Below, one piece after another: positions 13,958-38,445 of a DNA stretch of 64,000 bases. The stretch covers positions 496,001 through 560,000 of the forward strand of contig NZ_AP012978.1 of assembly GCF_000801295.1 (NCBI RefSeq). The letters run 5' to 3'. The notes under the pieces were generated by a model that worked only from the letters and a program-made list of their open reading frames with translations, was not told the origin of the DNA and did no database searches. The stretch's first letter is position 1. Each line of letters opens with the position of its first letter. The DNA is from an endosymbiont of unidentified scaly snail isolate Monju. Its GTDB lineage: Bacteria; Pseudomonadota; Gammaproteobacteria; Chromatiales; Chromatiaceae. The translations under genes were made by a program, and so were the position numbers.

Positions 13958-15166
<1,209 letters not shown>

Positions 15167-35700: not shown

Positions 35701-36267
35701 TCAGTGGCGCCAGCGACGCGCGATCCACCAGTCGAGGCTGAGATAGCGTCCGCCGCCGATGAAGAACAGGGTGAGCAGCATGATGAAGTAGGTCGCGGCG
35801 AACTCGATGCCGTTGTTGAGGATCACGAATTGCCCCTTTTCGGTGAGCCATTCGAAGTTGCCATGCTGTTGCAGGATGGCGTTGGCCCGCTCGAGTCGTT
35901 GAATGGCCTCCGGGGTCTCGGCGATTGCCGCCCAGCCGTTTGGTCAGTGCACGGTCACCGCGGCAACCACCATGGTCACCATCAGGGGGAGGCTGATCCA
36001 GCGTGTGGCCAGCCCCAGTGCCAGCAGGATGGCGCCAGCCGTCTCGGTGAGCGCGGCCGCCCAGGCCGTCAGTTCGGGGAAGGGCAGCCCCAGGCCCCAT
36101 TCCGGGTTGCCGAACCAGGCGATGGTGCTGTCCATGTCCGCCAGTTTCTTGGTGCCGGCCATCCAGAACACGGGGGCCAGGTAGATCCGTATCAGCAGGG
36201 GCGCGAGAAAGTCCAGGGTGCGAGTGGCATCGAGCAGGTCCTGCAGGCGGTTGAACAGGCGCAGCAT
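35701..36267 (-). pseudogene. hvfX: DoxX-family membrane protein of the hvf cassette, interrupted by an in-frame TGA
   Basis: The reading frame encodes 188 residues with four hydrophobic segments (LLIRIYLAPVFWMAGTKKL, AALTETAGAILLALGL, LMVTMVVAAVTVH, and ATYFIMLLTLFFIGGGRYLS), as in DoxX proteins found with DUF692 and DUF2063 genes. Codon 108 is TGA (35946-35944) where the context VTVH*PNGWAAIAE suggests tryptophan; TGG to TGA is a single change. Both sides of the stop are in the same frame, and the distal part keeps full similarity. It could be a nonsense mutation, a sequence error or readthrough. It starts 31 bases after hvfC and is the last gene of the cassette. Confidence 0.8.
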
Positions 36268-36298
36268 GGTGCGGGCCCTCCTGTGGTCGGGAAGTGGA

Positions 36299-37066
36299 TC
36301 AGCGACGCGTGCCGAGGAGGATGTTGCGCTCCCGCAATTCGGAGAGCAGGCGGGTGCCGGCCTGGATCACGGTCTGGGGCTGCGGGTGTTGCAATTCGTC
36401 GGCGATGCGTTTCAGACATTCCAGACCGGTCGTCTGCGGGTTCTCTTTCAGCAGGGCGAGCAGCCGCTGGGTGACCACGTTGATCTCGAGGAAATGCACT
36501 GCCTCCTCGCGGTCGCGGTAGACCACCAGGTGGGTGGCCTGCTCGCCGGGTTCGCGCGGCTGGAAGTCGGGCGAGATGCGATGCACCGGGAAGTGATAGC
36601 TGAGGTGCCAGGCGGTAGGCGCGACCAGCGGGCATCCGGAGAGCAGGTCGCCGTTGGGGTCGTGTTCGGGCAGCCTGCGGTCGGCGTCGCTCAGGGCCAC
36701 CGCCAGCTCGGCATACTCGTAGTGGGCCAGTTCCGCCAGGAAGGGCGGGTCATCCGCGGCCTGGCGCTCATGTTGCAGGTAGTCGATGAATTCCAGGCCG
36801 ATCTCGGTGAACAGCGGGGTACGGCAGCGGTGACGGATCATGAAGTCGCGCACCATCGCCTCCCAGGCTGCCTCGTCGAACAGGCTGCGCAGCACCGGGA
36901 AATTGCCCGAGAGGTGGCTGTCGAAGCCGTTGAAGAACAGTTCGCGATAGACCGCCATGCGCTCTTCGGGAATGCCGGATGGCGGCGGGGCGGCCGGGTC
37001 GCGGATGGTGCCCGCAAAGCGCTGCTGGATCTCCCGGAAGTCGGCCGGCTCAGGCGACGTGTTCAT
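36299..37066 (-). CDS. hvfC: HvfC-like DUF2063 partner protein of RiPP modification
   Basis: A 255-residue protein of the DUF2063 family (putative DNA-binding domain in older annotation). The N-terminal helical domain (FREIQQRFAGTIRDPAAPPP, ELFFNGFDSHLSGNFPVLRS) is followed by a second domain with HLSYHFPVHRISPDF and THLVVYRDREEAVHFLEIN. In HvfABC and methanobactin systems the DUF2063 or MbnC-type protein binds the DUF692 enzyme and delivers the precursor peptide. The start at 37066 lies 17 bases inside the end of hvfB, which implies translational coupling. Sequence appears intact. Confidence 0.88.
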   Translation of the reverse strand: MNTSPEPADFREIQQRFAGTIRDPAAPPPSGIPEERMAVYRELFFNGFDSHLSGNFPVLRSLFDEAAWEAMVRDFMIRHRCRTPLFTEIGLEFIDYLQHERQAADDPPFLAELAHYEYAELAVALSDADRRLPEHDPNGDLLSGCPLVAPTAWHLSYHFPVHRISPDFQPREPGEQATHLVVYRDREEAVHFLEINVVTQRLLALLKENPQTTGLECLKRIADELQHPQPQTVIQAGTRLLSELRERNILLGTRR

Positions 37067-37914
37067 CGTGGGCCTCCGCATGCCGCCGTTGTGCCTCGAG
37101 GATCTGCGCGATCTCCAAACGCAGTACATCCAGTGGCGGGATGTTGAAATCGCGCTCCAGCAGGGTGGGAAAGACCCCGTAGCGTTCGTAGGCAGCATCC
37201 AGCATGGACCAGACCTCGGGGATCACGTCCTCGCCATGGGTGTCGATGCGCAGGTCCGGTGCGGCCTCGTAGTGACCGGCGATGTGTGCGTAGAGGATAC
37301 GTTCGGCGGGGATGCGTGCCAGGTAGTCGTAGGGGTCGAAGCCGTGGTTCACGGCATTGACGAAGATGTTGTTGATGTCGAGGTGAAAGCCACAATCGGC
37401 CTCTTCGAGCACCGCGACGAGGAACTCGATCTCGCTCATCTCGCCCGGGGGCATGGCATAGGTGGAGACATTCTCCATGCCGATGCCGCCGGCCCAGGAT
37501 ATCCTGTACCTGGCGGATGCGCGCCGCGACATGGTGCACGGCCTTCTCGGTGAAGGGGATAGGCATCAGGTCGTAGAGTTGGCCCGAATCGCCGCACCAG
37601 GACAGGTGCTCGGTATAGACCAGTGCCTGGCTGCCGTCGAGAAAGCGGCGCAGGTCGTCGAGAAAGTCGGTATCCAGCGGGGCCGACCCGCCGATGTTCA
37701 GCGACAGACCGTGACAGACCAGGGGGTAATGTTCAAGCACCCGTTCGAAGTCACGCCGGCGGGCGCCGCCGACGCCGATCCAGTTCTCGGGCGCGACTTC
37801 GATGAAGGAGATGTCATCCGGGTGCTGTTCGAGGACCTCGGGGATGAGCTCCTGCTTCAGGCCCAGGCCGGCGCCGGTTACCGCATAGCTTGTTTCTGTT
37901 GCCTGTTTCGGCAT
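37050..37914 (-). pseudogene. hvfB: HvfB-like DUF692 multinuclear iron enzyme, frameshifted
   Basis: DUF692 enzymes use two or three iron ions and O2 to convert cysteine residues of a precursor peptide (MbnB in methanobactin; HvfB/BufB in the EGKCG-peptide family). Read through the break, the product is 287 residues: MPKQATETSYAVTGAGLGLK, then metal-site regions CHGLSLNIGG, YTEHLSWCG, GMENVSTYA, DINNIFVNAVNH, LYAHIAGHYE and DTHGEDV. One extra base near 37487, in GGCCGGCGGCATCGG, shifts the frame between LGRR and IGMENVS. Starting at 37914 fits the family; it begins 107 bases after hvfA. If the base is real, the cassette cannot make the modified peptide. Confidence 0.85.
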
Positions 37915-38020
37915 TTGCGTCCCCCGGGTGGTGTTCATGCAAGGACACGGCATGGCAATGCGCTTGCATGAACACCGCAATCGGGCGGCACTGGGCCGCC
38001 CGGCGCGGGCAGAGCCGGCA

Positions 38021-38263
38021 TTACTTCTTCTTCATGCCGCCGCACTTGCCGGCGCCACACTTGCCTTCCATGGGCTTCTTGTCGGTCATGTTGCTACCGT
38101 ACTTGCCTTCCATGTGTGCGGCGGCGGTCTGCAGGTAGCCGCCGTTCAGTTCGGTCATGCCGAAGGGGTTGTCGGCGGCGCCAGCGGCACCGGCCAGCAT
38201 CATGGAACCGGCAATAGCGGCACCGATGGCGGAAGCAACGGGTTTGGTGGTCTTTCTGGACAT
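38021..38263 (-). CDS. hvfA: HvfA-like RiPP metallophore precursor (bufferin type)
   Basis: An 80-residue precursor peptide. Residues 1-29 are a signal peptide (SAIGAAIAGSMMLAGAAGA), so the peptide goes to the periplasm. The mature part ends PMEGKCGAGKCGGMKKK with the two-cysteine EGKCG-type motif that defines the family; an earlier EGKYG motif looks like a degenerate third site in which tyrosine stands for cysteine. In known members HvfB and HvfC convert these cysteines into thiazole-like or oxazolone-thioamide groups that bind copper. A GGAGAGAGAC ribosome binding site precedes ATG 38263. Upstream, AAAACATTTGAAAACAAGCG and a TACAAT are candidates for promoter parts. It leads the hvfA-B-C-X transcript. 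Confidence 0.88.
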   Translation of the reverse strand: MSRKTTKPVASAIGAAIAGSMMLAGAAGAADNPFGMTELNGGYLQTAAAHMEGKYGSNMTDKKPMEGKCGAGKCGGMKKK

Positions 38264-38445
38264 GTCTCTCTCCGAGTGGGTCAGATTGTAGATTCGCTTG
38301 TTTTCAAATGTTTTCCGGTCGCTGGCCGGGCCCTCGACCGGTTCTTGTGACTCCGAGGGGCGGGTTTCGTTCCTGGGGCTGCCAGATCGGCGATGTGGAA
38401 ACGGACAGTCTCCGGCCTTGTGACCGTGGCGCTGGCACATTTATT

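Follow-up and report, generated by a model that had tools for sequence, protein, structure and literature searches.

The DNA examined here, called the window throughout, is a stretch of 64,000 nucleotides (G000:C1:496001-560000) within the single 2.6-Mb contig of the endosymbiont of the scaly snail isolate Monju (G000). On its minus strand lies a four-gene HvfABCX cassette of the oxazolin/captophorin type: a gene for a small precursor peptide, hvfA, is followed by hvfB, hvfC and hvfX, of which hvfB shifts into another frame near 37485 while hvfX contains an in-frame stop. Compared with the gene of a sister genome in the same genus (G003), hvfA has lost six repeat units, and we think it somewhat probable that the cassette, thus shrunk, was recently lost as a working pathway. 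The features are, in window positions:

38349..38373, minus strand: candidate extracytoplasmic function (ECF) sigma-type promoter, GGAAC-N17-GTC, 110 bp 5' of the hvfA start (pattern chosen post hoc; upstream alignment with the sister genome)
38021..38263, minus strand: hvfA, precursor peptide of 80 aa with two Cys, uninterrupted (open reading frame; NF050137; orthologues in 7/7 congeners)
37050..37914, minus strand: hvfB, MNIO (DUF692) modification enzyme, interrupted, with frame one from 37914 to ~37486 and frame two from ~37484 to 37050 (PF05114 and NF003818 on both halves)
36299..37066, minus strand: hvfC, DUF2063/RRE partner protein of 255 aa, intact (NF050145, PF09836, PF22106, PDB 3DEE)
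35701..36267, minus strand: hvfX, DoxX-family membrane protein, in-frame TGA at 35946-35944 (NF050144)

The gene content, order and strand given in an initial annotation of this stretch are borne out by the open reading frames and profile matches; the interruptions of hvfB and hvfX are absent from it, and the cassette end that it placed at 35701 is reached only by reading through the TGA of hvfX. The peptide has the 80 residues and two cysteines described there, but its C-terminus is EGKCGAGKCGGMKKK and not ...KCGG. Likewise, of the overlaps that had been claimed, the one between hvfB and hvfC exists (17 bp), while hvfA and hvfB are separated by 106 bp and hvfC and hvfX by 31 bp.

The most decisive profile match is that of hvfC, which scores 309.9 bits against NF050145 (cut-off 142), also matches PF09836 and PF22106, and finds PDB 3DEE as a structural match (E 9e-10); since HvfC is moreover above cut-off in 7/7 congeners searched, the cassette is beyond chance. 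The hvfA product reaches 25.6 bits with the HvfA domain model NF050137 (NCBIfam; cut-off 19.5), and the first 107 aa of hvfX, before the stop, reach 121.9 bits with NF050144 (cut-off 80), rising to 238 bits when the stop is read through. Both halves of hvfB match PF05114 (146 and 166 bits) and score higher with the HvfB model NF003818 (179 and 195.8 bits) than with BufB (113 and 134); the HvfB cut-off of 360 applies to the whole protein, and each half alone scores lower. The sister's intact HvfB passes it with 405.6 bits and stays under the BufB cut-off of 310 with 275.4 bits; an MNIO of the BufB or MbnB type was rejected because this protein falls under those cut-offs. Structures have been solved for a relative of HvfB (3BWW) and for one of HvfC (3DEE). 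HvfA, HvfB and HvfC are retained in all seven congeners, and in each the product of the peptide gene carries EGKCG or DGKCG motifs. The HvfABC family membership first proposed was thus right: the DUF692 gene sides with HvfB rather than BufB, and no congener lacks the peptide gene.

The precursor itself consists of a signal-like N-terminus, the conserved NPFGMTELNGGY leader motif, a degenerate EGKYG, and EGKCG-AGKCG-GMKKK; judged by eye, the N-terminus may be a Sec signal, as it starts with charged residues, continues with a hydrophobic stretch and ends in small residues. One score speaks against placing it with the full-length HvfA equivalogs: with NF050188 it reaches 18.6 bits, below the cut-off of 95, as does the eight-Cys HvfA of the sister (26.4 bits). 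A profile search gave no DUF2282 or BufA2 match for hvfA. We also considered that hvfA might be a chance open reading frame and rejected this, as it has orthologues in 7/7 congeners and, within its first 50 codons, a ratio of nonsynonymous to synonymous substitution (dN/dS) of 0.17-0.22 against the two closest relatives. No second HvfA-like gene was found in this genome, in the sister or in G007, each giving one match at E up to 1.

Among characterised systems, the oxazolin cassette HvfABCX of Haemophilus influenzae shares with this locus the four gene families, an EGKCG precursor, and ECF control there against an ECF-type promoter here; according to PMC13419390 its HvfA carries three AEGKCGEGKCG motifs with six Cys, whereas the peptide here has one EGKCGAGKCG pair with two, and here hvfB and hvfX are interrupted. 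The fontiphorin cassette FonABC of Fontimonas thermophila, of the captophorin class, likewise combines an EGKCG core with an MNIO and a PME1 partner as described in PMC12668002, which gives FonA seven sites compared with two here, and FonB Arg15-Arg16 where the position that we take to match is Lys-Gln. Bufferin Buf2 (BufA2/BufB/BufC), of which one cassette is present elsewhere in this genome, also pairs an MNIO with a DUF2063-type partner and a secreted Cys peptide, but its precursor has Cys-Lys motifs, unlike the one here, and the sister's HvfB lies under the BufB cut-off. The cassettes closest to this one are those of the congeners (G001-G007), which share the type of locus and the leader NPF(G/A)(M/L)(T/S)ELxxGY and differ in having an unbroken hvfB and 1, 3, 8 or 10 Cys rather than 2.

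The small size of the peptide is explained by its repeats. In the sister, hvfA contains a 42-bp tandem array of 6.7 copies with 90% matches, and the gene in the window equals the sister gene minus six 14-codon repeat units plus one Lys codon, which makes it 83 codons shorter; in its last repeat unit, the sister's codons are kept from GGC AAG TGT onward. The degenerate EGKYG pointed out in the initial annotation is present, but it is inherited and not a fresh degeneration, as the first repeat unit has Tyr in place of Cys in both genomes. Across the genus, the Cys count of HvfA is 1 in G007, 2 here, 3 in G001, 8 in G002-G005 and 10 in G006.

For a wider survey we used 156 cassettes, defined as those in which an HvfB dyad (see below) could be read; a precursor was found beside 103 of them, while in the other 53 the contig ended, the flanks were short or the precursor was of an unlike kind. 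Cysteines number 1-14 (median 6), and only 5 of the 103 precursors have two or fewer after the leader motif, so that the peptide is indeed one of the smallest of the family, as had been suggested. Small precursors as such are already in print: Antoine et al. (PMC12452194) give sizes of 31-506 residues. We found no paper on a two-Cys HvfA in a search limited to open-licence literature. As reported in PMC12668002, FonBC modified a two-repeat FonA peptide in vitro and did not modify a one-repeat peptide. The EGKCGAGKCG of this genome matches that two-repeat test peptide in core length and spacing, and so has the length of the shortest peptide modified in vitro by a related enzyme pair; by this comparison it would stand at the limit for FonBC, and the one-Cys peptide of G007 below it. 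In G007, hvfB and hvfC are kept while hvfX is a 32-residue remnant, the next two genes are lost, and the second MNIO is reduced to a 50-position match. Elsewhere in the genus, hvfX is unbroken in G002-G006 and split across two contigs in G001. The genus thus provides a natural series of 1, 2, 3, 8 and 10 cysteines at one locus, and so allows tests of the number of thiooxazoles required in a useful copper peptide and of the route by which the pathway is lost.

Whether the frame change and the stop are decay or sequence error bears on how the cassette is read. In a first comparison against the sister, 10/59 genes outside the window and 6/42 inside it showed some frame change or stop. An error-rich assembly, suggested by a seemingly broken L5, was rejected, as L5 is intact and the break lies before its true start; other breaks that are not internal concern metH (stop at residue 3), a GGDEF gene (stop at 604 of 611) and DUF494 (break before the domain). 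Clear internal lesions in this set are those of ggt, hydantoinase A, fpg and hemF, those of an ABC gene and an unnamed gene being less clear. Under a stricter rule, by which lesions counted only if no nearer than 60 residues to the start and 15 to the end, 16/199 sister-conserved genes (75,636 aa) carry an internal lesion, hvfB and hvfX included.

If such lesions fell at random, 5.3 would be expected in 73 housekeeping genes (25,226 aa), but none is found (chance 0.005). These 73 are the genes found at half length or more, with 103 E. coli genes as queries, in 870 kb of the genome; several of them, mnmG, mnmE, rsmG and nadC for example, we take to be conserved rather than essential. We left out cdsA, infB, glmM and carA, whose matches were weak or partial, and three flagged genes were judged to have no lesion, murE and fusA since the match was to a neighbouring paralogue, and mnmG since its stop lies at residue 625 of 629. 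The 811-aa cassette, for its part, has two lesions where 0.15 are expected (chance 0.01), and the frame-change site in hvfB has no homopolymer run. It is the sparing of the housekeeping genes that raised our estimate for decay from improbable to somewhat probable, and we regard the interruptions as probably real and as recent decay; decay is visible in the close relative G007, with its single HvfA cysteine and its hvfX remnant.

Several observations weigh against this. The converse count, in which 8/189 genes of this genome are broken in the sister, is not clearly lower (Fisher p 0.14). Counting the flagged mnmG as a lesion raises the housekeeping chance to 0.03, and queries from the distant E. 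coli may let lesions near gene ends escape. Of the 15 frame-change sites, 4 have a run of at least five equal bases no more than 12 nt away, compared with 4% of random sites, so some lesions may be sequence errors. Neither hvfA nor hvfC is interrupted. Against the sister, each piece of the cassette gives a dN/dS of 0.12-0.22, even the stretch of hvfX beyond the stop; with codon constraint this strong, relaxed selection is not yet visible, and any loss must therefore be recent.

The principal alternative is that the cassette works, its two apparent lesions being sequence errors, and that it makes a minimal two-site thiooxazole peptide of the smallest size accepted in vitro by the related enzyme pair. 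In its favour, the codon constraint continues past the hvfX stop, a share of lesions lies near homopolymers, hvfB is a single open frame in all seven other genus members, and the peptide has the length and spacing that FonBC modified. The housekeeping genes, none of them broken, and the clustering of two lesions in one small cassette argue the other way; we consider a working cassette a substantial but less probable account, and a recently lost one a little more likely.

While functional, the pathway would, judging from relatives, have run as follows. HvfC would hold HvfA by its signal/leader region, and the iron enzyme HvfB would turn the cysteines of Lys-Cys into 5-thiooxazoles, with a loss of 4 Da each; in PMC13419390, HvfC and HvfB together modify the full-length precursor best. 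The modified HvfA would be exported by Sec and would bind Cu(I) in the periplasm, HvfX would aid the pathway, and an ECF sigma factor would presumably switch the cassette on under envelope or metal stress. After the loss of six repeat units, one tandem pair would remain, predicting a mass change of -8 Da, with each peptide perhaps binding a single Cu. Because the hvfB frame change and the hvfX stop look real, the peptide would today be unmodified or not made, and copper may be handled by the BufA2-type cassette, itself intact, that the genome has at another site.

Support for stress control comes from the region 5' of hvfA. An alignment of this region from the present genome, the sister and G007 shows GGAAC in all three, with GTC at ECF spacing in the first two. 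When these three were excluded, leaving 88 upstream regions, GRAAC-N16-18-GTC was found upstream of hvfA in 27 of these other cassettes, compared with 0/88 on the antisense strand and 0/88 at gene starts, while 60 shuffles gave 1.5 on average and at most 6; these numbers are somewhat overstated because the pattern was shaped on the same data. Motifs of this class in Gammaproteobacteria are often TGAAACT or GGAACC followed by GTC. The genome has 13 Sigma70_r4_2 matches, 12 of them above cut-off. A sigma-70 scan gave one promoter-like site, at 35678-35651 and thus not before hvfA (0.6 expected), and a terminator scan gave none (2.1 expected).

According to PMC7907618, in H. influenzae the homologous four-gene operon relies under hypochlorite on RpoE2, an ECF factor, which the ECF-type promoter here would fit; the promoter suggests that stress control of HvfA cassettes extends beyond Haemophilus and Neisseria. 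Both could also be taken to mean that the product serves mainly against hypochlorite, oxidative or other metal stress rather than copper. We find this unlikely, as the products of such cassettes generally bind copper in the account of PMC12668002, although both roles may coexist. Least probable is a collapse of the 42-bp array in assembly, by which the true peptide would have more units: the sister's array of 6.7 copies at 90% matches would lend itself to this, but the single contig probably reflects reads long enough to cross 0.3 kb, the first unit here is not the same as in the sister, and four other precursors among the 103 also have two or fewer cysteines.

The substrate and its enzyme may have changed together. 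In the model of PMC12668002, Glu1 of the EGKCG pentamer lies between Arg15 and Arg16 of FonB. The matching dyad in HvfB of the present genome is Lys-Gln, its position being deduced from a conserved Arg-Arg motif that 3BWW also has; read from alignment columns, the dyad is Lys-Gln in seven and Lys-Asn in one of the eight genus members, and Arg-Arg in 130/156 cassettes. Ninety cassettes with a tandem pentamer pair were placed on a tree, one of them (G459) entered from an incomplete open reading frame. Arg at the second site goes with Glu leading most second pentamers in 69 of these and non-Arg with non-Glu in 15, while the mixed combinations are rare (Arg with non-Glu 5, non-Arg with Glu 1). We claim no significance for this covariation, because one clade of 15 (SH-aLRT 99) holds 14/16 of the non-Arg cases and only 2 to 4 pairs are independent. 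A separate case is G062, a distant cassette on a long branch, with Asp for Arg and Lys-led pentamers, suggestive of a mirror change. Where Arg is present but the second pentamer is not led by Glu (five cassettes), the substrate may have changed first.

We tentatively propose, although we rate the proposal as rather unlikely in its entirety, that HvfB of this clade dropped the second Arg since its substrates had dropped the Glu that this Arg reads, the second unit of every tandem pair having turned into AGKCG or TGKCG, that copy number within the clade rises and falls by whole repeat units, and that the two-site peptide here would be the smallest substrate left that the enzyme can modify, with the one-site relic of G007 a step below it. 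If the Arg/Glu covariation holds on wider sampling, it would be natural evidence for the proposed substrate contact.

On its 5' side the cassette is flanked by DUF1841, nth, a split sensor kinase and an rnf-type electron-transport cluster, and on its 3' side by a 138-aa protein that matches no family, a LolA-like protein and a DEAD-type helicase; the helicase and nth are named from sequence. The secreted-looking 138-aa protein and the LolA-like protein (window:34184-35561) follow hvfX and are both gone in G007 together with most of hvfX; their genes may be part of the cassette unit. A hybrid histidine kinase/response regulator at window:39598-41718 lies in several frames, with a frame change also in the sister, while a PilS-type sensor kinase with two frame changes (window:12223-13851) and a hydantoinase B gene with one (window:61924-63503) are each in one frame there; outside the window, the gamma-glutamyltranspeptidase and hydantoinase A genes are also broken. 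Two ALIL pseudoknots of equal score and opposite orientation, at window:241-357 (minus) and 14225-14341 (plus), presumably mark a pair of IS3-type elements bounding 14 kb.

The second MNIO cassette of the genome (L035:4753-7171, G000:C1 about 2452752-2455170) has two tandem KCKG-type precursors, one of which scores 80.7 bits with BufA2 (cut-off 60), an MNIO with 391 bits for BufB (cut-off 310), and a distant DUF2063-type partner. Directly before it (L035:3022-4719) lie cas1 and cas2 and then, 67 nt apart, a pair of 35-nt CRISPR-like repeats. At L035:1784-2089 a 12-bp tandem unit fills ~300 bp, its copies being 98-99% alike in mid-array. A second DNA polymerase III alpha-type match at G000:C1:1729082-1729543 (minus strand) covers only positions 2-156 of 260, and is perhaps a cut error-prone polymerase gene.

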